Assembly: GCA_002722935.1 (NCBI GenBank)
Contig: PBMX01000024.1
Coordinates: 1-37,502 of the forward strand
DNA: 37,502 nucleotides
Direction: 5' to 3'
Source of the DNA: Phycisphaerae bacterium
GTDB taxonomy: Bacteria > Planctomycetota > Phycisphaerae > Phycisphaerales > SM1A02
In this document: piece after piece, positions 17,343-33,567 of the stretch
Numbering within the stretch: position 1 is the stretch's first letter
Layout: each line of letters starts with the position of its first letter
The notes under the pieces: model-generated
The model's input: the letters and a program-made list of their open reading frames with translations, nothing else
Database searches by the model: none
Told to the model about the DNA's origin: nothing
Program-made: the position numbers and the translations under genes

Positions 17343-18986
17343 ATGACGCCCGACCAGGAACCAATTGAATCCGAGCAACTCCTGGCAACACAGGAATCTT
17401 CACTTGGTGGCAACACGGAGGATGAGATTCGTGAACGTTGCCGGGTGCTTGGCCTGACCTGGCATGAACGACCGACACAGGCGGATCCCGCCGCCACCTC
17501 GCTGATCGAAGCGGACGTCGCGGTACGACTTCGCGTGGTCCCACTCCGATTGGAGGGATCACGCCTGATCCTGGCCATGCTCGACCCCCTCGATACGGAT
17601 GCCGCCGATGAGATCGCCACGCTCACGGGAAAACCCGTCACTCGCGAAGGCATGGAGAAGAAACACTTCTCGGAACTCATGCGGGAGCACTACGGCACGA
17701 CCGCCTCGAAGATGGCCGACGCCCTCGCCGGCAGTTCAGAAGACCTTGATGACGACCTGGAACACAATCTCGAGGCCATCGAGGCGGATGACATCCACCG
17801 CATGGCCGAGGAACCGACCCTCATCAACCTGGTCAACCTCATCCTCCTGGAGGCGATCCAGGGCCGCGCCTCGGACGTCCACATCGAACCCTTCGAGAAT
17901 GAACTGACGGTCCGGTACAGGATCGACGGTCTGCTGCACACGCAGAAGCCTCCGCCGAAGCATCTCCAGCCGGCGTTGATCGGCCGCATCAAGATCATGT
18001 CGGGAATGAACATCGCCGAGCGATACGTTCCCCAGGACGGGAAGATCGCCCTTCGCTTCGAGGGAAGGAAGGTCGACATCCGTGTCTCGACCGTGCCCAC
18101 GCTCTACGGCGAGTCCGTCGTCATGCGTATTCTCGACAAGACCTCCTTGTCACTGGATCTCGAGACGCTCGGAATGAGAACGGAGCTCATCTCGACGATG
18201 GATGAACTCATCCAGAAGCCCCACGGGATGGTCCTCGTCACCGGACCAACCGGCTCGGGCAAGACGACGACACTCTATGCCTCGTTGACGAGGCTCTACG
18301 ATCCGAGCAAGAAGATCATCACGATCGAGGACCCCGTCGAATACGAACTCGGCGGCATCAACCAGATCCCGGTCAATCCGAAACGTGGCCTGTCCTTTGC
18401 CAGCGGTCTGCGATCGATTCTCCGCCTGGACCCCGACGTCGTGTTCGTCGGCGAGGTCAGGGACGGGGAGACCGCGGACATTGCGATCCGATCCGCCCTG
18501 ACCGGACACCTGATCTTCTCCACCCTCCATACGAATGACGCCATCAGCAGTATCGGCCGGCTCGTCGACATGGGGGCCGAACCGTTCCTCGTCGCCTCCG
18601 TGCTCGAGGGACTCCTTGCACAACGACTCGGACGACGAACCTGCCCTCACTGCAGGGAACAGGTTCCGATGACGGACGAACAGGGCCAGCGACTCCGGAG
18701 CGACGAACGGGACATGTTCGACGGACGCGTATGGCATGGTGTCGGCTGCGAGAAATGCAACAACACGGGATACCTCGGTCGAATCGGGTACTTCGAACTG
18801 CTGAAGATCAACGGACCGCTCCGCGCAGCGATTTCATCGGGAATGAGCTCCAACGATCTCCGGGATGTCGCACGGAACGACTACGTGACCATGCGGCAGG
18901 ACGGGCTCCTCAGGGCCGTCGAAGGCGAAACGACCATCGCGGAAGTCCTGCGGGCGACGCAGGACGCCGACGACATGGAAGGTTGA
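17343..18986 (+). CDS. gspE: type II secretion ATPase GspE
   Basis: This hexameric cytoplasmic ATPase powers pseudopilus assembly and sits on the GspL/GspF platform. The start is ATG 17343, with AGGAG 7-8 bases upstream. The N-terminal GspE/MshE_N-type domain (residues 1-130) is followed by the ATPase core: Walker A GPTGSGKT (301-308), the Asp box/Walker B region RLDPDVVFVGEVRD, and the His box HLIFSTLHTNDA. A zinc site, CPHC ... CEKC, near the C-terminus is typical of GspE/PilB. At 547 aa it has the expected length. PilB cannot be strictly excluded on this gene alone, but the H-I-J-K-C-D genes that follow favour GspE. Confidence 0.93.
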   Translation: MTPDQEPIESEQLLATQESSLGGNTEDEIRERCRVLGLTWHERPTQADPAATSLIEADVAVRLRVVPLRLEGSRLILAMLDPLDTDAADEIATLTGKPVTREGMEKKHFSELMREHYGTTASKMADALAGSSEDLDDDLEHNLEAIEADDIHRMAEEPTLINLVNLILLEAIQGRASDVHIEPFENELTVRYRIDGLLHTQKPPPKHLQPALIGRIKIMSGMNIAERYVPQDGKIALRFEGRKVDIRVSTVPTLYGESVVMRILDKTSLSLDLETLGMRTELISTMDELIQKPHGMVLVTGPTGSGKTTTLYASLTRLYDPSKKIITIEDPVEYELGGINQIPVNPKRGLSFASGLRSILRLDPDVVFVGEVRDGETADIAIRSALTGHLIFSTLHTNDAISSIGRLVDMGAEPFLVASVLEGLLAQRLGRRTCPHCREQVPMTDEQGQRLRSDERDMFDGRVWHGVGCEKCNNTGYLGRIGYFELLKINGPLRAAISSGMSSNDLRDVARNDYVTMRQDGLLRAVEGETTIAEVLRATQDADDMEG

Positions 18987-18993
18987 ACAGGAC

Positions 18994-20253
18994 ATGCCGA
19001 CCTTTCAATACCAGAGCCTGACGGCCGACGGCACGAGACAGAGCGGCGTGATCACGGCGCAGAACAGGGCTGATGCCGTTCGACAGCTTCTCGGCAGGGG
19101 GGAAACCGCAACGAGCATTTCCAGCGCTGCCGGTGACGAGCATGGTGAAGAGGCGTACCCGGAAGCACCCGTTGCTCGAACACGCATCGGCCGAGGCTCC
19201 TCCAGGCCTCGCATGTCACGGGCCGAAATGGGAACCTTGATCAGGGAACTCGCCACGGCACTCGAAGCGGGCCTCCCGCTGATGCAATCGTTGAAGACCA
19301 TCAGGAAGCAGGCCTCGGGCAAGGGAGCCCCGGCTGTGCTCGACTTCATGATCGAACGGGTCGAGGCCGGTGAACCGCTCTACAAGGCCGCCCAGGACTA
19401 CGGCCGACCCTTCGACGACCTGATCGTCGGCATGCTTCGTGCAGCCGAGGCCTCGGGCCGTACGAGTGAGATCCTGCACCAGCTCGCTGAACTGCTCGAT
19501 CGGGGCGTCGAGCTCAGGCGCGAGCTGATGGGCGCACTCTTCTATCCCTTCATCGTCGCCATGCTGATCGTCGCGAGCATCGTCATTCTCGTGACGGTGG
19601 TCGTGCCGCGCATCATGGAACCGATCATCGCCGCAGGAGGCGGAGTCCACACCCTCCCCCTGCCGACGAGGATCATCCTCGGTGCCGCGGACTTCGCGTC
19701 CAGCTGGTGGCTCGCCTGCATCGTCGTCGCCGCCATCGGCTGGTATGGATGGAACTCGTGGGTAGGTCAAGCCGAGAACCGGGTCCGCTTCGATCGATTC
19801 AAGCTCAGGGTCCCGATCCTCGGACGGCTCAATCGGGACGTCGCGGTCGCCCGCTTCACCCGTACCCTCGGCACACTCACCACCGCAGGCCTCCCACTGC
19901 TCGATTCCCTCCGAATCACGCGGGACACGCTGGGCAACACCGCCATGATGAATGCGATCGATGAAGTGGAGCATCAGGTCACCGAGGGCAAGCCGCTGGC
20001 CGACCCCCTGGAACGATCCGGGCTCTTTCCCCCGCTGCTCGTCCAGGTCGTGAACCTCGGCGAACGCTCGGGCAAGCTCGAGAACATGCTGCTCCACGCC
20101 GCGACCGCGTTCGATCGACAGGTCAATGTCTCCATCAAGATCGTGACCAAGGCTCTCCCCCCCCTCCTGATCGTGATCATGGCCTGCCTGGCCGGGTTCG
20201 TGCTTGCGGCCATTCTCCTGCCCCTGCTCGAGATGCAGGCACTGATGCAATGA
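18994..20253 (+). CDS. gspF: type II secretion inner-membrane platform protein GspF
   Basis: This 419-aa polytopic membrane protein links the ATPase to the growing pseudopilus. The N-terminus MPTFQYQSLTADGTRQSG is the classic GspF start. Two repeated T2SSF domains are visible, one around LIRELATALEAGLPLMQSLK and one around FTRTLGTLTTAGLPLLDSLR. Each is followed by hydrophobic segments, with three membrane helices in total (near 190-210, 228-250 and the C-terminus). The gene lies 7 bases after gspE, and its stop overlaps an ATG in the gspG frame. Confidence 0.93.
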   Translation: MPTFQYQSLTADGTRQSGVITAQNRADAVRQLLGRGETATSISSAAGDEHGEEAYPEAPVARTRIGRGSSRPRMSRAEMGTLIRELATALEAGLPLMQSLKTIRKQASGKGAPAVLDFMIERVEAGEPLYKAAQDYGRPFDDLIVGMLRAAEASGRTSEILHQLAELLDRGVELRRELMGALFYPFIVAMLIVASIVILVTVVVPRIMEPIIAAGGGVHTLPLPTRIILGAADFASSWWLACIVVAAIGWYGWNSWVGQAENRVRFDRFKLRVPILGRLNRDVAVARFTRTLGTLTTAGLPLLDSLRITRDTLGNTAMMNAIDEVEHQVTEGKPLADPLERSGLFPPLLVQVVNLGERSGKLENMLLHAATAFDRQVNVSIKIVTKALPPLLIVIMACLAGFVLAAILLPLLEMQALMQ

Positions 20254-20287
20254 AACAGAACCAGTTCGAGTTCGTTGAACTCGTGGA

Positions 20288-20293
20288 AAGAGG
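20288..20293 (+). promoter_or_regulatory. ribosome binding site favouring the internal gspG start
   Basis: AAGAGG lies 10 bases before ATG 20304. The in-frame ATG at 20250 overlaps the gspF stop but has no comparable purine tract. Confidence 0.45.
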
Positions 20294-20303
20294 TACCAGA
20301 ACA

Positions 20304-20750
20304 ATGCATGACATGAATGACCGAAGAAAAAGACGCAGACGACATCGACGCGGCTTCACGCTCGTCGAGATCATCGTCATCGTGACGATCATGGCGATTC
20401 TCATGACCGTCGTCGCGACGACCCTGACCCAGAGATTCGGCGCAGCCAAGAGCAGCCTGGCCAAGACCGGGGCCGCTCGCCTCAATGCCGCCCTGCAGAA
20501 CTACCTGATCGACCAGGGCCTCTCGGCCCCACCACCCGACTTCGACTTCGAGACCCTCATCCTCCGAAGTGACGAAGGTGGAGGAATCAACGGGCCGTAC
20601 GTCGAGAACGTCGATCACATCAAGGATCCATGGGGCAACCCGTACGTGCTCGTCATTCCCGGAGAGGTCAACCTCACGTGGGACATCATGTCCTACGGCG
20701 AGGGTGGTCAACCAGGAGGCGAAGGTCCGTTCGCAGACGTCACGAACTGA
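20304..20750 (+). CDS. gspG: major pseudopilin GspG
   Basis: GspG is the main subunit of the T2SS pseudopilus, cleaved and N-methylated by the prepilin peptidase. The start chosen, 20304, gives a 17-residue very basic leader (RRKRRRRHRRG) cut before FTLVEIIVIVTIMAIL, with Glu at +5. ATG 20250 would give a 35-residue leader. The C-terminal domain carries the conserved DPWGNPYVL block and an Asp-rich loop like the calcium site of GspG. At 148 aa it is near the family size. It is followed by three minor pseudopilins and gspK. Confidence 0.9.
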   Translation: MHDMNDRRKRRRRHRRGFTLVEIIVIVTIMAILMTVVATTLTQRFGAAKSSLAKTGAARLNAALQNYLIDQGLSAPPPDFDFETLILRSDEGGGINGPYVENVDHIKDPWGNPYVLVIPGEVNLTWDIMSYGEGGQPGGEGPFADVTN

Positions 20751-20753
20751 ACC

Positions 20754-21338
20754 ATGCGTCCCGCCGCCTCCAGTTCGCACCGCCGCGGGTTCACGATGGT
20801 CGAGATCATCATGGTCTGCGTCATCCTGGCGCTGCTGCTCTCGGCGATCCTCGTACGGCTCACGAGCCTGCAGGGACGGAACTTCGATACGGTCGTCGAC
20901 CAGGCCGGCGACCTGCTCATGATGTACGCACTGCGCAGTGAACACGCCCGCCAGCCGGTGGGACTCTTCGTCGACGAGTCCAGGAGCTCGATCAGGCTGA
21001 TGCGACGGGAGTCCGGGGACGATCCCGGGGACACGTCCCTCTGGAAGTCGGATCCGACCGTCCGGGAAGTCCGCCTGCCGGACTTCATGAGCATCTACGA
21101 ACTCGAAATCTACATCGACGGGGACCAGGCGGACCTGACCCAGTGGCCCCTTTCCACCATGCCCGGTGAAGATCGACCCGCCGTCGAAATCGTCCTGTAC
21201 CACGAGGACCGCGAGGTTCGACTGAACCTTCCGCCGACGGCACTGGCGCCTGTCCGGATCGAGGATGGACGCGACACCCTCCCCGTTCGCGAGATGGAGG
21301 ACCTCGATACCACCGGTCGCTGGCAGGAGGACTGGTGA
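20754..21338 (+). CDS. gspH: minor pseudopilin GspH-like
   Basis: The 194-aa prepilin-like protein has leader MRPAASSSHRRG, cut before FTMVEIIMVCVILALLL, with Glu at +5. The C-terminal part is beta-rich without the DPWGNP motif. Its place between gspG and the I-J-K genes fits GspH, a minor pseudopilin of the shaft or tip. Sequence alone separates minor pseudopilins poorly, so the letter rests mainly on gene order. It starts 3 bases after gspG. Confidence 0.78.
   Translation: MRPAASSSHRRGFTMVEIIMVCVILALLLSAILVRLTSLQGRNFDTVVDQAGDLLMMYALRSEHARQPVGLFVDESRSSIRLMRRESGDDPGDTSLWKSDPTVREVRLPDFMSIYELEIYIDGDQADLTQWPLSTMPGEDRPAVEIVLYHEDREVRLNLPPTALAPVRIEDGRDTLPVREMEDLDTTGRWQEDW
21325..21330 (+). promoter_or_regulatory. 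strong ribosome binding site deciding the gspI start
   Basis: AGGAGG lies 9 bases before ATG 21340. The frame is open further upstream, inside gspH, but this site marks the real start. Confidence 0.7.
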
Positions 21339-21339
21339 G

Positions 21340-21837
21340 ATGACTTCTGCACGAAGACATGTCCGGCGAAGAGGTGTCGTGCTGCTCGACGTGATTCTCG
21401 GCGCCCTGCTGCTTGCGACCGGCCTGGCGATCGTGGTGTCCCTGAGCACCCAGTCCCTTGCGCGGCAGGTCGAGGGTGAGCATCGGATGACCGCGGCCTG
21501 GTTGGCCGACGAACTCCTGTCCATGGTCCTCGTGGAAGGCCCGCAGCAACTCGCCGGCAGCTCTCCGGAGATCTGGATGGGCGAAGGCGGAGGGAACGGT
21601 CGGTTCGACGAACCCTTCTCGGACTACACCTATGAACTGGACATCAACTACATCGATGACTTCCAGCCCTACGTCGTGACGGTGTACGTGCGATGGCCCA
21701 ACCGGAGCGGGATGGGCGAACTCTCGGTCTCCACCCGGATCTCGCACCGGCGAGGGGAGGACGAGGAGGAACCCCCCAGAGAACCCCTCGAGCCACTTGA
21801 CAGGGACAGTCGCTACTTCGACGAGGAGGGCGCATGA
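21340..21837 (+). CDS. gspI: minor pseudopilin GspI-like with Asp at position +5
   Basis: The 165-aa protein is a prepilin with leader MTSARRHVRRRG, cut before VVLLDVILGALLLATGLAI. In most pseudopilins other than GspK residue +5 is Glu; here it is Asp, which may affect N-methylation or docking. Identity as GspI comes from position before gspJ and the general V/T-L-L-E/D-V-I-L helix start. The C-terminus is acidic and Pro-rich (EDEEEPPREPLEPL). The gene overlaps gspJ by 4 bases (ATGA). Confidence 0.75.
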   Translation: MTSARRHVRRRGVVLLDVILGALLLATGLAIVVSLSTQSLARQVEGEHRMTAAWLADELLSMVLVEGPQQLAGSSPEIWMGEGGGNGRFDEPFSDYTYELDINYIDDFQPYVVTVYVRWPNRSGMGELSVSTRISHRRGEDEEEPPREPLEPLDRDSRYFDEEGA

Positions 21838-22718
21838 CGGCTGTACGCAGCATCCATCCACGTGTACGAAGAGGATTCACGATCGTCGAACTGATCCTGG
21901 CCGGCGTCATCGCGTCCCTGGTCATCGGAGTCCTGACGATGTCGATGTCGCAGATCATCAAGTCCAAGTCGATCAGCAAGGAACGACTCGACGCATTCGT
22001 GCGGGCCGACGTCGCCCTGAAGAACCTCCGACGCGACATGATCTCGATTCTCAGGCGGGACGACCTGTTCTTTACTCGCCTGAAGATCGAGGATGACTCG
22101 ATCCAGACACCCAGAGGTGAGTTCAACCGTGATGAGATTCTCCTCTTCAACCATCGACTCAGGGCATCGAGGGAAATCGACTACAACGGAGAAGGGGTCG
22201 AGTACGAAACCGCCTACCGTGTCGATGACGACGACTGGGGGCCGGTTCTCTGGCAACGACGAGACGCCCTCCCCGACCAGTACCCGACGGCCGGAGGAAT
22301 CGTGACCCCGATCTCGGAAGGCGTCGTCGAACTCTCGGTCGAGGCCTGGGATGGAGAACAATGGCTGGAGGACTGGGACTCCGACTACGACGGGTTGCCT
22401 CACGCACTGCGCATCTCGGTCCGGGCAAGTGGACACCTTCCCGGCGAATCCGCGTGGGACGCGCCCATCGCGACACTTCGGACGATCGTTCCGCTTGATC
22501 GCGTCCCACCACCCGATGACGTGATGGAGGATCAACTTCAGCAGTTGATCGCCCTGCTCAACAATGAAGGCGGCGACGGTGAAGGCGGCATCGGACTCAA
22601 TGCCGACGGCGGAGAGGATGGCGAGGGCGCGATCAACAACGATGCCGCCGAAAGTTCCGATGGACCTCCCGACATCAACACCATTCTGAATGAACTGAAC
22701 ACGGAGCGACCGGATTGA
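21834..22718 (+). CDS. gspJ: minor pseudopilin GspJ-like
   Basis: The 294-aa prepilin-like protein has leader MTAVRSIHPRVRRG, cut before FTIVELILAGVIASLVIGV, with Glu at +5. The globular part (DVALKNLRRDMISILRRDDLFF, then VELSVEAWDGEQWLEDWDSDYDGLP; position guides) matches GspJ, where the W-D-D-G style loop is common. The last 75 or so residues are Gly/Asp/Glu-rich low complexity, longer than usual for GspJ. It overlaps gspK by 4 bases. Confidence 0.82.
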   Translation: MTAVRSIHPRVRRGFTIVELILAGVIASLVIGVLTMSMSQIIKSKSISKERLDAFVRADVALKNLRRDMISILRRDDLFFTRLKIEDDSIQTPRGEFNRDEILLFNHRLRASREIDYNGEGVEYETAYRVDDDDWGPVLWQRRDALPDQYPTAGGIVTPISEGVVELSVEAWDGEQWLEDWDSDYDGLPHALRISVRASGHLPGESAWDAPIATLRTIVPLDRVPPPDDVMEDQLQQLIALLNNEGGDGEGGIGLNADGGEDGEGAINNDAAESSDGPPDINTILNELNTERPD

Positions 22719-24076
22719 AACGCCATGCATGCACAGTCCGGAGGAGTTCTGCCACGAGACGCGGCTCGGTGATCATCGTGATCATCTGGGCGATCTCCAT
22801 CTGCGCCCTGCTCGTCACATCCCTGATGGTGTTCGCAGGTCGCCAGTCGATGCTCGGTCACGAGACCGTCGACCGGATCCGCGCACGCTGGGCCGCGAGA
22901 GCCGGCATTGAATCGACCCTCGCCGTGATGGGGCACCATACGGAGGAGCCGGAGATCGATCATGCCCTCGCGATGAACCTGGACATGGAAGTCGTCGCGG
23001 CTGGTGAAACGGACCACGGCACATGGTCGATTCTCTACGACGATCTCGACGGACAGCGATGGCCCGGCCCGATGGATGAACACATGAAACTGAATGTCAA
23101 CGGCGACGGCCGAGGGTACATCGCCGTGATCTTCTCACCGCTCTCCTGGGGAGTCGCTCCGGCGATCGAGGACTGGATCGACGAGGATGACGACCCCCGC
23201 GACCTCGGCGTCGAGCGTGATTACTACCTTTCTCTGGATGCACGCTACGAGCCCCGGAACGACTACCTCTGGCACATCGCGGAATTGGAACTCATCGCAG
23301 GCCTGGACCCTGAAGACATCCGTGGCGAGGACTGGAACCTCAACAATCGACTTGATGAGAACGAGGATGACGGCGACGGCTCCCTCCCCGAAGACGAGCC
23401 GGACAATCGCCTTGAGGGAGGGTGGGCCGCCTACCTGACCGCATCGACCATCGCCGACGGAGCCACCGCCAGCGGACTGCCTCGGCTGTATTTCCCCGCG
23501 ACCACGGTCGAGGAACTGGCTGAACGAACTGGTCTCCAGCCCAGCCAGGCTGAAGCCCTGATGAACATGGCCAAGGAGGACGGATTCGAGCTCGAATCAC
23601 TGATAACGACCCCCTTGGGAGTCGAAGCGGATGAGGACGGTGGAGGGCCTGGCAGCTCCGCCAGCAGCGGGGATTCAAGCGTTCCACCCCTCGAGGATTG
23701 GCAGATAACGGCGATTTTCGATGAAACCACGACAAACAAGCCACACCAGCAGGCCGTCGGCAAGCTCAATATCAACACGGTCCCCCGGACACTCCTCCTC
23801 GACATGTACACCGGACAGGAGGATCTCGTCGAAAACATACTCAGCATGCGAAGAAACAGGGCCGAGGGCATCACGAGCATCATGGACCTCCGGGAACTGC
23901 CCGGCATGACAGATGATCTTCTCTGGCAGTTGGCGAGGACCTTCACGACCCGAAGCAACGTCTACACCATCACTTCGCGAGGCCGAAGTGGCAGTTCCGG
24001 GGCAGAAGTTGAAATCGTGACCACCGTTGATCGTTCAACTGTGCCGGTTCGGATCCTCGAATACAGGGAGGAATGA
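22715..24076 (+). CDS. gspK: minor pseudopilin GspK
   Basis: GspK caps the pseudopilus tip with GspI and GspJ. The likely start is TTG 22715, overlapping the gspJ stop (TTGA), with GGAG 8-9 bases upstream; no ATG in frame precedes the membrane helix. The leader ends RRG before SVIIVIIWAISICALLVTSLMV. As expected for GspK there is no Glu at +5. A large domain of about 400 residues follows, with a helix-hairpin-helix-like block at the C-terminus (KLNINTVPRTLLLDMYTG ... DLRELPGMTDDLL) typical of GspK. The central Asp/Glu-rich loops (DENEDDGDGSLPEDEPD) may bind calcium, as in known GspK. Confidence 0.88.
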   Translation: MKRHACTVRRSSATRRGSVIIVIIWAISICALLVTSLMVFAGRQSMLGHETVDRIRARWAARAGIESTLAVMGHHTEEPEIDHALAMNLDMEVVAAGETDHGTWSILYDDLDGQRWPGPMDEHMKLNVNGDGRGYIAVIFSPLSWGVAPAIEDWIDEDDDPRDLGVERDYYLSLDARYEPRNDYLWHIAELELIAGLDPEDIRGEDWNLNNRLDENEDDGDGSLPEDEPDNRLEGGWAAYLTASTIADGATASGLPRLYFPATTVEELAERTGLQPSQAEALMNMAKEDGFELESLITTPLGVEADEDGGGPGSSASSGDSSVPPLEDWQITAIFDETTTNKPHQQAVGKLNINTVPRTLLLDMYTGQEDLVENILSMRRNRAEGITSIMDLRELPGMTDDLLWQLARTFTTRSNVYTITSRGRSGSSGAEVEIVTTVDRSTVPVRILEYREE

Positions 24077-24089
24077 GCCGTAAGGGCTC

Positions 24090-26012
24090 ATGAGGGCCTC
24101 CAGGAGCGCCAAGGACAGGGTTTCATCCATTCTGGATCACGCAGTGACGAGTACACCCAGGACATCTTCAGGGTTCAACGAGGCCTTCATACTCCACCTT
24201 CGTGGAGCTGCATGGCATGGTCTTCTTGCAGAATTGGACCCAGTGCTCGGCCCACGCGTGCTGGAAACCGTCTCCTTCGAAGGCCAGGGGGACCAGGCCG
24301 TCCAGGACTGGATCGATCATCGAGGCGTCAAGACCGTTCGAGCCATCCTCCCGGCCTCGAATGTGATCTGTCGAACATGCAGTCTGCCGGTAACCGATGA
24401 GGCACAACTCGAGTCCGCCCTGCAGTTGCAGGTAGAGACACGCCTGCTTGGTGCCGCCCCGACCCACAGGACTGGAGCAGCACTCCTGCCAGCCGCCTCC
24501 CATGCCAGCACGCGGACGGGCTTGATCCTCGCCTGGCCTGAAACCTCGAGTTTCACAGGCCCGCAACTCGAGGAATCCCCCTATTTCATACCGGATATCG
24601 CGGCGCTTGCTTCTCTGGTGGATGGACTTCATCCCGCCGACCCATTGGTGTGGTGTGATCGGACGGACGGCTCCGTAGGCCTCGTCCTGGCCCAGCAGGA
24701 ACGCGTCCTTGTCCGCGCCACCCGCGAAGAACCCGGCCTCGACCAATCCGCAAAGGACAGGTTCCACAACCTGCTTCTTGAAACCGCCCTCCAGACCGGC
24801 AGTACCCAGGACTCGGCCGAGTCGATGGCACAACGAACAACTTCGTCGATGGAAGCCCTCCAGGGCAGTCAACTCCTCCTGTTGCCACAGGAGGTTGTCG
24901 ACAGTATCCATGAACGTGCCAGGGATGTACCCACTGATCCGGACTGGCTCAACGAGTGGGGCATCTGCCTTGGAGCCGCCATGGCAATGGGAGACGACCT
25001 GGTCCTGCTGACGTCCTTCAGGCGCGAGATTCCCATGGAGGCTCCCGCCTTCCTTGAAATGAGCACCGAGCGGCTGGGGATGAAGAACGTAGCCGCACTC
25101 CTTGCACTCGTTGCCGTACTCGTTCTTGCCTTCGGTCCCCTTCTCGTCCACGGCACGAGGCTCGGCCTTCTTTCGATCCTGCACCCCGAGATCGATGCAC
25201 AGGTTCGTTCCTACGAGGAGGGCACGAACCAGTCGACGATGTACAGGGCCATGATGAACGAGGCATGGCCGATGTCGAAGCTCATGGCCGACATCGCGAA
25301 CAACACGCCCGAAGGCATCGATATCGAATCCATCAAGATCGGGCATGGTGAACCGGTGAAGATCCGCGGAGTCGCAAAGCCAAGTGGTGATGGAGATGCC
25401 GCCGCGCTGGCGACCCTGATGAAGGCCCAGCTGCAGGGCTCCGGGGTTTTCGATGACGTGACCCTGCGATGGGAAAACTCCGAGACCTACGGGGACCGCT
25501 CCTTCGACATCAGTGCCGAGGTGAAGCGGCCTCATTTCAGGCCCGCCTACGCAACCGAGCAGGACTTCGGAGCCTGGACTCTTTCCGCGAGGCGAAGTGG
25601 AGAAGGGCCCGGCGGTGAGGAGTCGGGTGACACGGGCGATGTACTCGTCGAGGCCGAGACTCCCAGGACCCCGGTGGTGGCCACGCCACCCCAAACGAAT
25701 GACCTTGTCGAATCGCAGTCCCCTCGCACCTCGAGACCAAGCCGCGGCGGCAATGACGGGCTGGCTTCCCGAGGAAACTCCGACAATCAGGGAGCCGACC
25801 TGACGAGTGTTCCCACCGGGCGTATTCCCGAACCGCTCACCGAGGACCAGATCAGCACCCTGTCGATGGACGAGGCGAGGATCAAGCTCAAGGAAGTCGC
25901 GGATGCACGGAAACACGTCAGGGATGAAGCCGTGAAGGATCGACTTCAGACCGAGTTCAGGATGATCATGAACCACATGCGAGTACTGCGTGAAAGCGGA
26001 GGATCCCGATGA
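24090..26012 (+). CDS. gspL: GspL-like type II secretion platform protein with long C-terminal extension
   Basis: GspL is a bitopic protein whose cytoplasmic domain holds GspE and whose periplasmic domain pairs with GspM. This 640-aa protein has a cytoplasmic half of about 325 residues with an actin-like pattern (VLETVSFEGQGDQAVQDWI, then LPVTDEAQLESALQLQVETRLL; position guides). One membrane helix follows near residues 335-355 (ALLALVAVLVLAFGPLLVHG), then a ferredoxin-like region containing DIESIKIGHGEPVKIRGVA. After about residue 500 comes a low-complexity Ser/Pro/Thr/Gly/Glu stretch, and a charged helical tail (DEARIKLKEVADARKHVRD). GspL is normally about 400 residues, so this tail is unusual. 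It overlaps gspM by 4 bases. Confidence 0.78.
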   Translation: MRASRSAKDRVSSILDHAVTSTPRTSSGFNEAFILHLRGAAWHGLLAELDPVLGPRVLETVSFEGQGDQAVQDWIDHRGVKTVRAILPASNVICRTCSLPVTDEAQLESALQLQVETRLLGAAPTHRTGAALLPAASHASTRTGLILAWPETSSFTGPQLEESPYFIPDIAALASLVDGLHPADPLVWCDRTDGSVGLVLAQQERVLVRATREEPGLDQSAKDRFHNLLLETALQTGSTQDSAESMAQRTTSSMEALQGSQLLLLPQEVVDSIHERARDVPTDPDWLNEWGICLGAAMAMGDDLVLLTSFRREIPMEAPAFLEMSTERLGMKNVAALLALVAVLVLAFGPLLVHGTRLGLLSILHPEIDAQVRSYEEGTNQSTMYRAMMNEAWPMSKLMADIANNTPEGIDIESIKIGHGEPVKIRGVAKPSGDGDAAALATLMKAQLQGSGVFDDVTLRWENSETYGDRSFDISAEVKRPHFRPAYATEQDFGAWTLSARRSGEGPGGEESGDTGDVLVEAETPRTPVVATPPQTNDLVESQSPRTSRPSRGGNDGLASRGNSDNQGADLTSVPTGRIPEPLTEDQISTLSMDEARIKLKEVADARKHVRDEAVKDRLQTEFRMIMNHMRVLRESGGSR

Positions 26013-26584
26013 TCGATGCGAACACGCATGTCGAGCGATTCAAGGGACTGCCGAGATCCTGGCAGTGGATCCTCCTCGCGACCACGTTCATGGTCGCCTT
26101 CCTGACCTGGGCATATGTCATCGCCCCGATCGGGGACGGCTGGGCCGAGCAGGCGAACCGCATCGAAGCGGACCTCGACCGCACCAGCAGCGGCATTGCG
26201 ATGGATGCCCACACGAAGAACGCCGTCATGATCTTCGGCCCACTCGATCTGCCCAACAAGAAGGCCGACGGGTCGTTGACGCTGATCGAGAACGTGCAGA
26301 TGATTCTCGCCGATCGCGGAATCACGAATGACACCTTCTACCAGTCGCAAAGTGCGAACATCAAGGCAAGCGTGCTTCCGTGAGTTGCGCGTGCGGGCGA
26401 GAAGATCGAGCGCATCAAGGGTGAACTCGACTTCGAATCGAAGCCCGAGGTGGCCATCGCCATCATCGCCGACATGGAACGAAGCCCTGAGATCGAAGCG
26501 ATCTCGAACCTCAAGATGGACAAGTTGGGCAACGGCCAGGTTCGAACCCGCCTGACCGTGGAAGCATGGGTGAGAACACGATGA
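26009..26584 (+). pseudogene. gspM: GspM-like gene interrupted by an in-frame TGA
   Basis: The gene starts at ATG 26009 (4-base overlap with gspL). One membrane helix (WILLATTFMVAFLTWAYVIAP) is followed by a PilO/GspM-type periplasmic part. TGA at 26381-26383 would end the product at 124 aa (...SANIKASVLP). The same frame continues without another stop to 26584: ARAGEKIERIKGELDFESKP ... TRLTVEAWVRTR, which completes the ferredoxin-like domain. The final stop overlaps the ATG of gspC by 4 bases, as elsewhere in the operon, so the intact gene clearly spans 26009-26584 (191 codons before the stop). CGA to TGA is one C-to-T change. Options are a real null allele, a sequencing error, or readthrough. 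No good start for a separate second half is visible. Confidence 0.82.
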
Positions 26585-27378
26585 ACACATCGAAACAGTC
26601 ATCACTTCGCGGCCCCCTGGGGATCAGCCTGCTGGCTCTCCTGATCATCGGCGTGTTCCTCGTGGCCATGATGCCGGCCATCTACAGGTCGGCATCCACG
26701 GTCTTCACCTCCGGTACTGATGAGGCCGGTTCGATCGACAACCTGATCGTGGCCCATTCGGGAAACATGGACACGGACCTGGACCGGTTCAACGGCCGGT
26801 CCTTCTTCTACCTGCCGCCGATCAAGCGACGCCCGGCTCCACCACCCCCACCGCCTCCGCCGCCGGTGGTCACCGAGCCGGTTGAACCTCCTCCACCACC
26901 GCCGCCCACCTACCCACCGAACTACACGGGGCCGAAACTCATTGCCATCCTGGGCGATGAAGCCTGGTTCCGGAAGCCCAGCAGCCTCAAGTTCGGTGTC
27001 GAGGATCCCAAGACCCGGATCCGGGTCGGTGAAACGATGCATGGCATCGAACTGCTGTCGACGAATCCACCGCGTGGCATCGAGGTCAAGTACAACGATG
27101 GAGGCCCCTACGAGGTCCCCCTCATCGACATGGACTCGGATCCCTTCTCGAAGGACATCGACACGTCGGTCCCCCGGGGAATTCTCGAGGATATCGACCA
27201 GGAGGATGCCGCCCCGGCATCGCCTCCTCCAGCCGTCGAAACCCCCGCTGAACCGGCCCAGGAGCCCCCTTCAAAGGCAGTTTCTCCGGAAACCCCCTCT
27301 GAAACCCCTGCCGAGCAGGATCCACCCCCACCGCCGGTCCCCTCCCAGTCACCCGGCGGGCTCGATGAGTTCGAATGA
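26581..27378 (+). CDS. gspC: GspC-like inner-membrane protein with polyproline linker
   Basis: GspC joins the inner-membrane platform to the secretin. The start chosen is ATG 26581 (MNTSKQSS), which overlaps the full gspM frame; ATG 26566 is an alternative. One N-terminal membrane helix (LGISLLALLIIGVFLVAMM) is followed by a periplasmic linker with two proline runs (9 and 7 Pro). Then comes a small beta domain (GPKLIAILGDEAWFRKPSS ... RIRVGETMHGIELLS) that resembles the HR domain of GspC/PilP. The tail is Pro/Glu/Ser-rich. There is no PDZ domain. Assignment rests on topology, the small beta domain and place before gspD; PilP-like is the alternative name. Confidence 0.72.
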   Translation: MNTSKQSSLRGPLGISLLALLIIGVFLVAMMPAIYRSASTVFTSGTDEAGSIDNLIVAHSGNMDTDLDRFNGRSFFYLPPIKRRPAPPPPPPPPPVVTEPVEPPPPPPPTYPPNYTGPKLIAILGDEAWFRKPSSLKFGVEDPKTRIRVGETMHGIELLSTNPPRGIEVKYNDGGPYEVPLIDMDSDPFSKDIDTSVPRGILEDIDQEDAAPASPPPAVETPAEPAQEPPSKAVSPETPSETPAEQDPPPPPVPSQSPGGLDEFE

Positions 27379-27465
27379 CCCTCGATTTGGTGGAATAGAG
27401 CCCCTCTCCGATTCGTTCAACAGGCCCAGTCGATCCGATACAGGGTGCATGGACCTATTGAAACC

Positions 27466-27471
27466 GGAGGG
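27466..27471 (+). promoter_or_regulatory. ribosome binding site deciding the gspD start
   Basis: GGAGGG lies 9 bases before GTG 27481, which opens directly into a signal peptide. An earlier in-frame GTG at 27445 lacks such a site. Confidence 0.6.
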
Positions 27472-27480
27472 AATCCAGAC

Positions 27481-30312
27481 GTGGCATCCAGGCAGTTGAT
27501 CCGATTCGTATTTCCGACTCTTCTCTTCGTAGCGGCCCCGGCTCTCCTCGCCCAGGCCCAGGAAGATGAGCGACCGGCCCCCGAACCACCGACCACTGCG
27601 GGAGCACCGGAAGAGGACACGTCCGACCCCATCACCTTCCCCGGGACGGATGAAACCGTCTCGACTCGAGAAGGTGCGTCCTCGCGTCCATCCGACAGGA
27701 TCGATCCCGAGGAAGAGGCTCACCTGGAACGACGGCCCATACCGGAAGGCAAGATGAACCTCGCGCTTGACGAGGTTTCCATCTCCGACCTGATTCCATG
27801 GATCGCCGAGATCACCGGGAAGATCGTCATGCCCCTGGGCCTGGAAGGATCGGGCATCGGGCTTGGAACCGGCGGTGGGAAGATCACCCTCATCGTCGAC
27901 GAGCCGATCGAGAAGCGTGAAGCTCTGGAGATGATCTTCAGCGCCCTGCGCATGAACAAGATCGCCGTCATCGAACGACCTGATGTCATCATCCTGACCA
28001 AACTCGAGATCACCCAGATCACGAACGAGATGAGTGACATCCCCGTGCTCGACTCGGCGGTCGACGTGCGGGATCGCATGGACCGCGGCACCATCGTCCT
28101 GAAGATCTTCAACGTCGAACGAACCGATGCCGTCGAGATCTCGGAAAAGCTGGCCGACATGAAGCCGGACTACGCCGAGGTCTGGGTGGACGAGATGTCG
28201 AACCAGATCATCGTGCTCGGTGACATCGGCCTCTGCCAGCAGTACGACAAGATCATCCGGGAACTGGACCAGAAATGGCTCAACAGGAAGCTGCACACCT
28301 TCCGGCTCAGGTGGGCCGACGCCAACGAGGTCTCCAACAACATCCTCGACATCTTCGAGGAAGGGACGGCAACCGCATCCTCCCGTTCTCGATCGTCCAG
28401 CACCAACCGGTCGAATACGCAGCAGCGGGGCAACACGCGAACCACGTCCACGACCACCGCCTCCGGCGTCGAGCTGCGCCTCACGGTCAACGTCCAGCAG
28501 AACGCGGTGACGGTGCAGTGTGAACCGGAGGTCATGGAAGAGATCGCGATGCTGATCCTGACCGAGTGGGATGTCCCCCGTTCGCCCGGAACTTCGAGGC
28601 TCTTCGTCCTCAAGTACACCGATCCATTGAAGGTCAAGACCCTGCTCGAGGAAGTGCTCGGTGAAAGCACCGGGGCCTCGGCGACCGCCCGGGGTGGGCA
28701 GAACGCCCAGCGCGCAAATGCGACCCAGGCGATCTCCGGCATCTACTCCATCGATGCCTACCCGGACAAGAACGCCCTGCTCGTACTCGCCAAGACCGTC
28801 GAGTCGTTCGACTTCATCCAGACCATCATCAATGAACTGGATCAACCCAGCTCCGTGGGCGTCCCGCGAATCGTTCCCTTGAAATACGCCCGGGCCGTGG
28901 AACTGGCCGAGGAACTCAACGTGCTGCTCTCGAAACCGGGCGCGAACGTTTCAATCCCGAGACCGGAGTCGGGACTCAGCGGCGAGGGATTCGAATCCCC
29001 AAGCGGCACCGGTACCGGCAGTTCAACTGCCGACAGTTCCGGAAGCCAGGACCTGTCCTTCCCATGGCAGCGAGGGAGCGAGTCGGATGACCAGTCGCCG
29101 GAGTCCTCGCTGATCGGCAAGGTTCGAATCGTCCCCGTGGTGCGGCAGAATGCACTGGCCATTCTTTCTCCAGCCGCCTTCGTCGAGCCCATGGTGGACC
29201 TGATCCAGAACTTCGACATTCCCCGCAGGCAGGTCCTGCTGTCGGCGACGATCGTAGAGGTCGACATCACGGATCAGTGGAATCTCGGGACCAAGTGGGG
29301 CAACAACCCGCAGGCCTCCAGCAGCGTCAACGGGCAGTTCTTCGGTGGCGGCCTCTTCGATGCCGCAGCCGGCACAGCTGGCGCGGCCGGAGGATTCAGC
29401 TTCGGGATCACCGACTTCCTCGACAACCTGCTCGATGGAACAACCAGTTCCACACTGAATGTCAGCGCATTCGATGTCCAGGTGATCATCGAGGCCCTCG
29501 CGCAGGTCACCAATACCCGCATCATCCAGGAGCCGCGTGTCTTCACCGCGGACAACGAGGAAGCGATCTTCTTCTCGGGCAAGGAAGTCCCGATCCCCGT
29601 GAGCAATACGACCGACCTCAGTGGCGGCAACTCGCTCAATACGCAGATCGAGTACAGGGACGTGGGTGTCTTCCTCAACGTGAGGCCGCGAATCACCCAG
29701 GAAGGAACGGTCGACCTGGAAATCAGCCTTCAACTCTCGGATTCGGTCGGCAATGCAACGGTCGGCCAGATCCAGGGTGAAGTCTTCTCCAGGAAACAGG
29801 TCAACAGTCACGTCATCGTGCTCGATGGACAGACCGTCGTGCTCGGCGGCCTCCTGAAGGAGACTGAAACCCAGATCAAGCAGAAGATTCCGCTGCTGGG
29901 CGACATTCCCATCCTCGGTGAACTCTTCAAGTACAACGACGAGAGCCTGGAGCGGCTTGAACTGCTCGCCTTCATTACGCCGACCGTCGTCCATCGCCCC
30001 CTGGACAACTACGACAACTACAACAGGGAGGATCTCATCCGACTGGAAGAGGTCTCCCAGCCTCTGGCCGATCAGGTCGTCGGGCGGTCATGGTTCTCCG
30101 AAGGCGAGATGCAGTTGAACATCTCCGAGCGCATCACGTCCAGCAAGAACGCCAAGGAAGCCAAAGGGCGTGTCGACGATGGGCTCGTGGAGCCTCCGGA
30201 CCGTGACGCGATCCAGACCGAGATCGACAACATCGAATCAACCGAACCCGATGATGTGCCAAGTGATCTTGACGACATCGACGACATCAAGCCAGAGAAA
30301 CAGCCGGAATGA
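27481..30312 (+). CDS. gspD: type II secretion outer-membrane secretin GspD
   Basis: GspD forms the multimeric gated channel in the outer membrane. From GTG 27481 the protein is 943 aa; GTG 27445 would add 12 residues before the signal peptide (RFVFPTLLFVAAPALLAQA). Periplasmic N domains follow: an N0-like region (MNLALDEVSISDLIPWIAEI), then N1-N3-type repeats (IVLKIFNVERTDAVEISEKL; FVLKYTDPLKVKTLLEEVL; IVPLKYARAVELAEELNVLL). The secretin core runs from about VRIVPVVRQNALAIL to VVLGGLLKETETQIKQKIPL, with the LLGDIPILGELF signature and AFITPTVV. Ser/Thr/Gly-rich inserts separate the N domains. An Asp-rich tail of about 90 residues ends the protein. The 102-base gap before it (27379-27480) holds no gene. 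Confidence 0.93.
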   Translation: MASRQLIRFVFPTLLFVAAPALLAQAQEDERPAPEPPTTAGAPEEDTSDPITFPGTDETVSTREGASSRPSDRIDPEEEAHLERRPIPEGKMNLALDEVSISDLIPWIAEITGKIVMPLGLEGSGIGLGTGGGKITLIVDEPIEKREALEMIFSALRMNKIAVIERPDVIILTKLEITQITNEMSDIPVLDSAVDVRDRMDRGTIVLKIFNVERTDAVEISEKLADMKPDYAEVWVDEMSNQIIVLGDIGLCQQYDKIIRELDQKWLNRKLHTFRLRWADANEVSNNILDIFEEGTATASSRSRSSSTNRSNTQQRGNTRTTSTTTASGVELRLTVNVQQNAVTVQCEPEVMEEIAMLILTEWDVPRSPGTSRLFVLKYTDPLKVKTLLEEVLGESTGASATARGGQNAQRANATQAISGIYSIDAYPDKNALLVLAKTVESFDFIQTIINELDQPSSVGVPRIVPLKYARAVELAEELNVLLSKPGANVSIPRPESGLSGEGFESPSGTGTGSSTADSSGSQDLSFPWQRGSESDDQSPESSLIGKVRIVPVVRQNALAILSPAAFVEPMVDLIQNFDIPRRQVLLSATIVEVDITDQWNLGTKWGNNPQASSSVNGQFFGGGLFDAAAGTAGAAGGFSFGITDFLDNLLDGTTSSTLNVSAFDVQVIIEALAQVTNTRIIQEPRVFTADNEEAIFFSGKEVPIPVSNTTDLSGGNSLNTQIEYRDVGVFLNVRPRITQEGTVDLEISLQLSDSVGNATVGQIQGEVFSRKQVNSHVIVLDGQTVVLGGLLKETETQIKQKIPLLGDIPILGELFKYNDESLERLELLAFITPTVVHRPLDNYDNYNREDLIRLEEVSQPLADQVVGRSWFSEGEMQLNISERITSSKNAKEAKGRVDDGLVEPPDRDAIQTEIDNIESTEPDDVPSDLDDIDDIKPEKQPE

Positions 30313-31523
30313 CGCGAACGGCCCTCATCATCATGCTTGCCGGATCGATGGCGCTGCCTGCCTGCACGACGTCCAATCGACAGAACCAGCCTCCACCGAT
30401 GAGCGCGCAAGCAACGAAGCGACTCCAGGAAATCGCAGAGCAGGAACTCCGACGTGGCAGCACCTTCTCGATCAGGTTCCAGGCCCAGCTCCAGGACATG
30501 GGTGAAGTCCCATACGATCAGTCGCCCCTGCCACTGGTGAGCCCGGACGGTCACTACATCGCGACATCGGTAGGCGTCGCCCCCGAGATGGCCACCCTGC
30601 TCGCCGAGCCGGGCAGTCCCTCTCCTCTGGCCACGGGCATCGAGATCTGGAAGATCGACCACCAGACAGGCGCCCTTTCGGCCACGTGCACCCTGCCTCC
30701 CCCGCTGCTCCTTGGTCGCTCCGCGGATACCGAGGGCTTCCTCGTCGAGTCCCCCACCCCACAGGGCCCGAGGAAGATCGGCAAGGTTTCGTGGACCACC
30801 GGGGAACTGGACTGGCTCGTCGATGACGAGAATGTCAACGCCTTCGCGACCATCGGACCCCGAGGTCAACTGGCCTACTCGACCCGGCCCGTCGGCCAGG
30901 AGGGATTCAGCCTCGTGGTACGAAACAGTGGTGGGACCGAGCTCGAAGTCGGCACGCTTGAGGGCAACTGGTACTTCCCGACATGGAGCACCAGAAATGA
31001 CCGCCTCTACGCCTTCTGGATATCTCCCGAGCACGACCTGCGCCTCGTGAGCATGCTCACCATCTCACAGGAGGCCATGGCTGCATCCATGAAGGACCTC
31101 GACCTCGGCGGCAATGCCACTGCACGAGTTGCCTACAGGGCGGTCGCGGTGCAACCTGTCGTGCAGGGACTCGGGTCGACGCCGACGGAGGAACTGCTCT
31201 TCTGGCATCCCGGCGAGGAACAACTGGTTGCATGGAGTCCGGGAGACAAGTCCCCCTTCATCCTCATGGAAAATGCCCTCGCTGCGGTCCACGACATCTC
31301 GGGCCGTTACCTCGTCACGACCGCCGACGAACTTCGGTACGTCGATCCGACGCGGATGAATCGATCCGTCCGCCTACACGACCAGGTTGCCATTCCCTTC
31401 AGGACGACCGCAGCTACGGGGCACTACCTCCTGCTGACACCCACCAGTGATCGTGTCAGCATCCGCGCACTGATCCCGAGCAACCAGTCCAGAACGATCC
31501 TCGGCACGGCCCCTTCATCCTGA
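30309..31523 (+). CDS. lipoprotein, possible beta-propeller, at the end of the T2SS operon
   Basis: The 404-aa protein starts at an ATGA overlapping the gspD stop. The lipoprotein signal is MTRTALIIMLAGSMALPAC, with C20 as the lipidated residue (LPAC lipobox). The mature part is rich in short strand units with dipeptides such as SPDGHYIA, GPRGQLAYS, WSTRNDRLYAFW and DISGRYLVTT, suggesting a WD40/TolB-like propeller. I do not recognise the family. Translational coupling to gspD suggests a T2SS accessory role, for example at the outer membrane, although it is much larger than the usual pilotin GspS. It ends one base before the stop of the convergent POT gene. Confidence 0.6.
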   Translation: MTRTALIIMLAGSMALPACTTSNRQNQPPPMSAQATKRLQEIAEQELRRGSTFSIRFQAQLQDMGEVPYDQSPLPLVSPDGHYIATSVGVAPEMATLLAEPGSPSPLATGIEIWKIDHQTGALSATCTLPPPLLLGRSADTEGFLVESPTPQGPRKIGKVSWTTGELDWLVDDENVNAFATIGPRGQLAYSTRPVGQEGFSLVVRNSGGTELEVGTLEGNWYFPTWSTRNDRLYAFWISPEHDLRLVSMLTISQEAMAASMKDLDLGGNATARVAYRAVAVQPVVQGLGSTPTEELLFWHPGEEQLVAWSPGDKSPFILMENALAAVHDISGRYLVTTADELRYVDPTRMNRSVRLHDQVAIPFRTTAATGHYLLLTPTSDRVSIRALIPSNQSRTILGTAPSS

Positions 31524-31524
31524 A

Positions 31525-33567
31525 TCAGTCGTCGGCCTCCTGCTCTTCCTGCAGGTAGGTATGCGGTCGGTACAACCAGCCGACCGGCACGAAGAGAATC
31601 GCGGTCCCCAGCATCACCCATGTGAAGAACCAGAAGTAACCGGCTCCCGACAGCGTTTCGCCTCCACCGACATCCCAACGGACGGAATGGGAAAAGGCGT
31701 CATCGGTATCCAGGTCCACTGCTCCACCGTCGCTGTTCTTCGATGGATCCGAAGTCTCCATGCCGAGTTCAGCCTTGCGACGCTCCAACCATGTCTGCTG
31801 GGGGTGTGCCCATGACAGCAGGTCGGATGAACCGGAACGGGCCGCATCCTCGGTCTTCTGTTCAGAGGTGCGCGAGGTCACTTCGACCTCCGCCCGGATG
31901 TCGAACTGGCTCTGCCATGTTGCATCGGGTCCTTCACTTGCAACGATGAATGAAACCCTGTTCTTCAACAGGTAACGCAGCGGGTTCCCCCACGGGTCGT
32001 CGATGTCGCCGATGAGTTCGGACCCGTCACTCGTCAAGGGCAGTCGCCCATTCGCGGTCCAGTAGCTGCCGATGCGATCGATGGCATCCTCGATGCTGGA
32101 GGCCTCCTCGCCGATGAACCCCGTCATCGTGCCGGTCGGAGCGAAGCCGAGACGGATGTCGTCATCTCCACCGAGAACACCGTCTACACCGGCAAGATCG
32201 AGTGCGAAGTTGCCGCCGGAGAGTTCGGTGTACCCGAGTCCATGGTTCGCGGATTCACCGGCCCGATCGACGGTTTCACCCTGCTCCGCCGCCGAGGCGA
32301 AGCCCGCCGCGACGATCTTCGCATGCTCGGCCTTCGAATCGACGAGAATCACGCTGTTGACGCCGGCGGTGAAGATGTTCCCCAGCGAGACACTCATCAG
32401 GAAGAGCGCCATGATCAGGGATTTCATCGTTCGTGGAGCCTGGGTATAGGAGAACTCCAGGCAGGTGATGGAGACCATGACCTCCGAGGCGGTGAGAATC
32501 GCATAGGCCGCGATCTGCCACCCGATGCTCGGTCGTTGTCCCGCATCGACCCATTCCTGCACCATGGAAACCATGGAGAAGCCGATCACCATGATGAAGA
32601 GGCCGATCGCGATCTTGCGTATCGGCGTCAGGGGGAAGACCTTGTTGATCGCCGGGTAGATCAGGTAGGTGAAGAGAGGGATGTAGATCAGGATCATGAT
32701 CGGGTTGACCGCCTGGATCTGTGACGAGAGCCAGGTGACGCCAAGCCAGTCGCGATCGAGATCCTCCGCCTGGAGGACCCAGGAGGAGCCGGTCTGATCG
32801 AAGAGCGCCCAGAAGACGGCGACGAATACGTAGATGATCCCGAGTTTCAGGATGGCGCTGATGCCCTTCCAACTGAAGGTCTCCTTGAACCACTTCAGTC
32901 CACCGGGTGGCACATGGATGAACTTCTTCCTCCCGCACCAGAACAGGAAAGTAGCGATCACCATGAGTACCCCGGGCACTCCGAAGGCCAGGTGGGGCCC
33001 GTACCACTCGAGGAACCATGGAGTCATGAGGGTCGACAGGAAGGCCCCGACGTTGATCGAGAAATAGAACCAGCCGAAGACCTTGCTCAGCAGGTGTCCG
33101 TTCGTCTTGCCGAACTGGTCACCGACGTGCGCAGACACACAGGGCTTGATTCCGCCTGACCCCAGCGCGATGAGTCCAAGGCCCAGGAAGAGCATCCAGC
33201 CGGGATTGATCCCCTCGCCCATTCCCATGAAGGCCAGGGCACCATGACCCAGGCAGTAGACGATGCTCAGTCCGATGATCGTCCGGTACTTGCCGAAGAT
33301 GATGTCACTGAGAAGCGCCCCGAAGATCGGCGTGAAATAGACGGCGGACGTGAAGCCGTGGTAGTTGGCGATGGCCTCCGCCTCCGGCATCGGCTCGTTG
33401 CTGACCGCCCCCGGAAGAAGGAACAGGTAGCTGGTCATGAAGATCGTCAGGATGCCCTTCATCCCGTAGAAGGAGAATCGCTCTGCCGCCTCGTTGCCGA
33501 TGATGTACGGAATGCCGCCGGGCATTCGCTTGGTGGAAATCGGCGCGGTTGCGTACTTGGCTGCCAT
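31525..33567 (-). CDS. POT-family proton-coupled peptide transporter with inserted GspG-like domain
   Basis: POT (PTR2) proteins import di- and tripeptides with protons. The protein is 680 aa, against about 450-520 for bacterial relatives. The start is ATG 33567 with AAGGAG 6 bases upstream. The N-terminal NEAAERFSFYGMKG holds the ExxER proton-coupling motif; the ALGSGGIKPCVSAHVGDQF and FYFSINVGAF blocks are POT signatures. After the penultimate membrane segment (ends near V406-D410), about 230 residues are inserted before the last one (about 643-666). Within the insert, IEDAIDRIGSYWTANGRLPL ... DDPWGNPLRY (D524-P529) and VASEGPD match the GspG/pseudopilin C-terminal domain. POT topology places this insert in the periplasm. 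A hydrophilic linker follows it. Confidence 0.88.
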   Translation of the reverse strand: MAAKYATAPISTKRMPGGIPYIIGNEAAERFSFYGMKGILTIFMTSYLFLLPGAVSNEPMPEAEAIANYHGFTSAVYFTPIFGALLSDIIFGKYRTIIGLSIVYCLGHGALAFMGMGEGINPGWMLFLGLGLIALGSGGIKPCVSAHVGDQFGKTNGHLLSKVFGWFYFSINVGAFLSTLMTPWFLEWYGPHLAFGVPGVLMVIATFLFWCGRKKFIHVPPGGLKWFKETFSWKGISAILKLGIIYVFVAVFWALFDQTGSSWVLQAEDLDRDWLGVTWLSSQIQAVNPIMILIYIPLFTYLIYPAINKVFPLTPIRKIAIGLFIMVIGFSMVSMVQEWVDAGQRPSIGWQIAAYAILTASEVMVSITCLEFSYTQAPRTMKSLIMALFLMSVSLGNIFTAGVNSVILVDSKAEHAKIVAAGFASAAEQGETVDRAGESANHGLGYTELSGGNFALDLAGVDGVLGGDDDIRLGFAPTGTMTGFIGEEASSIEDAIDRIGSYWTANGRLPLTSDGSELIGDIDDPWGNPLRYLLKNRVSFIVASEGPDATWQSQFDIRAEVEVTSRTSEQKTEDAARSGSSDLLSWAHPQQTWLERRKAELGMETSDPSKNSDGGAVDLDTDDAFSHSVRWDVGGGETLSGAGYFWFFTWVMLGTAILFVPVGWLYRPHTYLQEEQEADD

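Follow-up and report, generated by a model that had tools for sequence, protein, structure and literature searches.

The window analysed in this study is an entire contig (C24) of 37,502 bases from a MAG of an uncultured Phycisphaerales bacterium (1,402,068 bases in 46 contigs, 65% complete). On its forward strand it carries a type II secretion system (T2SS) operon, in which the secretin, the ATPase, the platform protein F and the major pseudopilin G are found together (PF00263, PF00437, PF00482 and PF08334, respectively). The operon comprises an intact GspE-like ATPase gene (17343–18986), an intact GspF-like gene (18994–20253) and an intact gene for a GspG-like major pseudopilin (T2SSG; 20250–20750), followed by GspH/I/J/K-like pseudopilin genes (20754–21338, 21265–21837, 21834–22718 and 22715–24076) with no stops inside; the names GspH and GspI derive from gene order only, those of GspJ and GspK from weak to clear Pfam matches. 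Further downstream lie an intact GspL-like gene (24090–26012), whose PilN and T2SSL matches are both under the Pfam cut-offs and which ends in a TGA inside an ATGA overlap, then the gspM-like gene described below, an intact gene for a proline-rich protein in the GspC/PilP position (26581–27378; named by place only, no Pfam match) and the intact GspD secretin gene (27445–30312). An earlier sequence-only reading of this DNA had described the neighbours of gspM as intact, and none of the operon genes around it contains an internal stop.

In 10 further operon genes, dN/dS ranged between 0.05 and 0.16, indicating that they are still constrained. Of the 11 genes of the operon that were compared, the proline-rich one evolves fastest, with a dN/dS of 0.164. 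A conserved gene at 30309–31523 on the forward strand, which shares a 4-base overlap with gspD and has a lipoprotein-like start (judged by eye) and no Pfam match, is an operon companion.

The gspM-like gene itself (26009–26584, forward strand; 191 codons plus stop) is interrupted at codon 125 by an in-frame TGA (26381–26383). Direct reading and translation place this codon in the frame opened by the ATG at 26009, and behind it 66 sense codons (26384–26581) lead to a terminal TGA at 26582–26584. The next gene opens with an ATG at 26581, which creates a 4-base ATGA overlap with the end of this frame; such an overlap also joins gspL and gspM (26009–26012) and, according to the ORF coordinates, recurs at 20250–20253, 21834–21837, 22715–22718 and 30309–30312. 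The first in-frame start codon past the internal TGA is located 22 codons downstream, and the base directly after the TGA is a G. The position of the stop, the open continuation of 66 codons, the overlap and the lack of a good start behind the stop had all been described from the letters, and correctly so. Since the TGA lies in the contig interior, it is not an end artefact.

Predicted fold and identity of the interrupted gene

Based on its predicted fold and its place among the genes, and not on a sequence model, the product is a GspM/PilO-type inner-membrane platform protein. A Pfam scan matched the protein to no family, and the NCBIfam GspM model NF040576 gave 15.8 bits over residues 19–58 only, against a cut-off of 60. 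Because a family-profile sequence search of solved structures yielded weak, unrelated-looking matches only (best E 0.0016, ribosomal protein L9), the comparison was made at the level of folds. The structure model is that of the closest relative's protein, which is 86% identical to the window frame, and was built on 28 homologues with a pLDDT of 86.3. It consists of a long N-terminal helix (residues 16–62), which together with a hydrophobic stretch in the window translation indicates an N-terminal membrane helix, and of an alpha-beta-beta-alpha-beta-beta domain, a C-terminal ferredoxin-like domain of the GspM/PilO kind. The top solved-structure matches to this domain are PilO proteins, and EpsM and PulM rank within the top 11 rows. 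The plain Foldseek list was mixed, with PilO, Amuc_1100 and phage tail terminators all at low TM-scores; it is the VIA-align comparison, together with the gene context, that supports the PilO/GspM reading.

PilO of type IV pili (PDB 2rjz, 3jc8 and 5uvr) provided the best structural matches, with 2rjz reaching a Z of 12.8 and an rmsd of 1.8 over 95 residues. Unlike PilO, however, the window gene sits in an operon with GspD secretin, GspE, GspF, GspG and GspK-like genes, and it is this context that gives the T2SS name. With GspM of the T2SS (PDB 1uv7, 8a9x and 8ab1) it shares the place after a GspL-like gene, the single N-terminal membrane helix and the C-terminal ferredoxin-like domain, and the closest relative's model aligns with EpsM (1uv7) and PulM (8a9x) at a VIA-align Z of 8.7 each; it differs in scoring far under the NF040576 cut-off, in having no Pfam match and in being interrupted by a TGA. 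The matches to PilO, EpsM and PulM and the place in the operon are thus in line with the GspM/PilO-type name given in the sequence-only reading. In the predicted C-terminal domain of the relative, the TGA maps to the loop that joins strand 1 (108–118) to strand 2 (132–144), so that a 124-residue product would lack three of the four strands and the second helix of the domain.

Conservation of the reading frame in relatives

A gspM homologue was found in 45 of 60 relatives, none of which has an internal stop, while the other 15 gave no match. The closest relative aligns unbroken over residues 1–191 with 86% identity. Taken together, this alignment and the 45 homologues without a stop show that the open frame past the TGA is not due to chance. 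Across the family, 161 of the 181 genomes, counting that of the window, gave a match, and no internal stop was present in any of the 149 relative matches listed (150 listed of 162, including the window's own with its one TGA; the other 12 were weak matches). One of the matches listed (G192) covers only query residues 10–88; its open frame is 130 long, and the match may be incomplete. Of the five columns that are invariant in the family alignment, three (F142, E157 and W187) lie behind the TGA.

Across 29 aligned relatives, the column of the TGA is occupied by Gly (14), Ser (5), Glu (3), Arg (3), Ala (2), Lys (1) and Asn (1), with Cys in none of them. All five nearest relatives (L003–L007) have glycine here, and the closest reads GGA. 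A change of one base had been proposed as the origin of the TGA, which agrees with the GGA of the closest relative; the particular change suggested, CGA to TGA, finds no support, given the glycine in the five nearest relatives and the arginine in only 3/29. To judge from these codons, a transversion in a glycine codon would be the simplest history of the TGA. Had the protein been found to terminate naturally here in relatives, the view of an interrupted gene would have been contradicted; 0/45 matched relatives stop at this position, and that view stands.

Selection on the codons downstream of the TGA

The dN/dS comparison indicates purifying selection on the 66 codons that follow the TGA. Compared with the closest relative, codons 126–191 show 28.5 synonymous and 6.5 nonsynonymous changes (dN/dS 0.038), which are distributed over the three codon positions as 6, 0 and 29; for codons 1–124, dN/dS is 0.094. 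With the next relative as outgroup, the window branch was assigned 12 synonymous changes in the codons after the TGA and 2 nonsynonymous ones, where about 37 of the latter would be expected had this part been unconstrained for the whole branch. The upper bound of the unconstrained fraction is about 0.17, or roughly the last 17% of the window branch, a rough value owing to the few changes and to the 8 synonymous and 2 nonsynonymous changes left unpolarised.

Such strong purifying selection leaves three readings of the stop: a recent origin, an error or readthrough. The codon record shows that gspM was maintained whole until very recently, or is so still; for a real stop, we infer a recent origin. 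The conservation of the downstream codons is also in keeping with the options put forward in the sequence-only reading, namely loss of function, an assembly error or readthrough.

A probable recent nonsense allele or consensus error

We consider it very probable that the TGA is either a nonsense allele of recent date or a single wrong base in the MAG consensus, an ordinary finding in both cases. That it is a real nonsense allele of the strain has about an even chance; an error of the MAG consensus is a serious possibility, somewhat short of even. The case resembles an ordinary nonsense mutation or pseudogene in a draft MAG in that one premature stop stands in a conserved frame and is absent from all relatives seen, and we found no feature that would distinguish it.

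On this explanation, gspM would have been intact and functional until very recently, when a single-base change, most simply in a glycine codon, would have produced the TGA at codon 125. If the TGA is real, translation would yield the membrane helix and, of the C-terminal domain, helix 1 and strand 1 only. The ferredoxin-like fold, which pairs with GspL, could then not form, and the T2SS platform would be expected to fail. In Xanthomonas, type II secretion was lost upon deletion of xpsM (PMC11981180). By analogy with the XpsM and OutM work (PMC3815138 and PMC11981180), a truncation inside the C-terminal domain should inactivate GspM, and a loss of GspM function is what we infer for a real TGA. 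The strain would then be one that has just lost type II secretion. Since gspM is kept in 161/181 family genomes, a broken copy should be rare, which favours error or readthrough over lasting loss.

Caution is warranted because a lone premature stop in a MAG, followed by conserved codons, has the look of recoding, yet the same picture also results from a mutation of very recent date or from one wrong base in the consensus.

Less likely readings: leaky readthrough, recoding and a divided gene

If the TGA is real but leaky, basal misreading by a near-cognate tRNA could yield small amounts of full-length GspM, which might suffice for a platform protein of low copy number, with no dedicated signal involved. 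In E. coli reporter work (PMC11126739), TGA was the leakiest stop, with 14 of 40 TGA reporters above the threshold, and a G following the stop favoured readthrough. The leakiness of TGA and the G that follows it in gspM make a small amount of full-length protein plausible, and the conserved downstream codons would also fit; however, a stop that arose very recently would leave the same conservation. Moreover, the TGA occurs in no relative among the matches listed, giving no sign of selection that keeps it, and the RNA fold downstream is not unusual (z −0.93). Programmed readthrough would be recognised by a stop and an extension that are both conserved in relatives; here the extension is conserved and the stop is not. 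Overall, we regard leaky readthrough as improbable. Still less probable is that this planctomycete makes its GspM in this manner and tunes secretion by termination efficiency, raised for instance at low temperature or starvation. A TGA that is read through would mean a secretion system set by translation termination.

Programmed recoding, by selenocysteine or a reassigned TGA, is highly improbable. A frame that stays open across a TGA with conserved codons beyond is a classical sign of recoding, and a first Rfam scan returned tRNA-Sec matches over the cut-off in 4/4 genomes. ARAGORN, however, identified these as tRNA-Ser(TGA), and the Rfam Sec model also matched in 14/14 control genomes. With the top tRNA-Sec matches being tRNA-Ser, selenocysteine was rejected, and neither the relatives (no TGA in the 45 matched, no Cys at the column in the 29 aligned) nor the downstream stem-loop speaks for it; the latter was rejected as well, as 32 of 200 shuffles were equally good. 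The 30 tRNA loci found in the MAG include neither a Sec nor a suppressor tRNA, none having a TCA anticodon, which at 65% completeness is not proof. Reassignment was rejected because release factor RF2 is present and whole, with no stop inside in the three of three genus members searched, and because TGA terminates 14/14 genes checked in the window, one of them gspL, whose own TGA precedes that of codon 125 by about 370 bases. The false-positive tRNA-Ser(TGA) loci (L040–L043) score about 49 against the 47-bit gathering cut-off of the Rfam tRNA-Sec model.

That the gene truly consists of two pieces, with a natural end at codon 124 or two proteins made through a restart, is just as hard to credit, since nothing favours it beyond the TGA itself, no relative among the matches listed ends at codon 124, the break lies within one predicted domain and the first in-frame start comes 22 codons later; two half-proteins had already been judged less likely from the letters, rightly on this evidence of homology, domain and restart.

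In-frame stops elsewhere in the MAG

A scan of the MAG for in-frame stops with strict limits had a sensitivity of 0.22. A second scan based on codon usage, covering 271,688 bases with a sensitivity of 0.61, returned 23 candidates, among which gspM scored highest (20.0). Judged by eye only, many of the other 22 resemble neighbouring genes that start just after a stop, or shadow frames.

Further observations on the contig

On the reverse strand, a gene at 31525–33567 encodes a POT-family transporter (PF00854), in which a stretch at residues ~490–570 contains a DPWGNP motif resembling the one in the GspG-like pseudopilin encoded on the same contig. This patch matches the pseudopilin weakly (BLASTP E 0.003 over 24 residues), and a pseudopilin-like patch in a transporter would be odd. 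The window also contains, at 33644–36031 on the reverse strand, a whole DUF255/thioredoxin gene, whose counterpart in a relative (L036, G001:C7:41225-43614) is split over two frames; this split is a frameshift or an assembly error in the relative.
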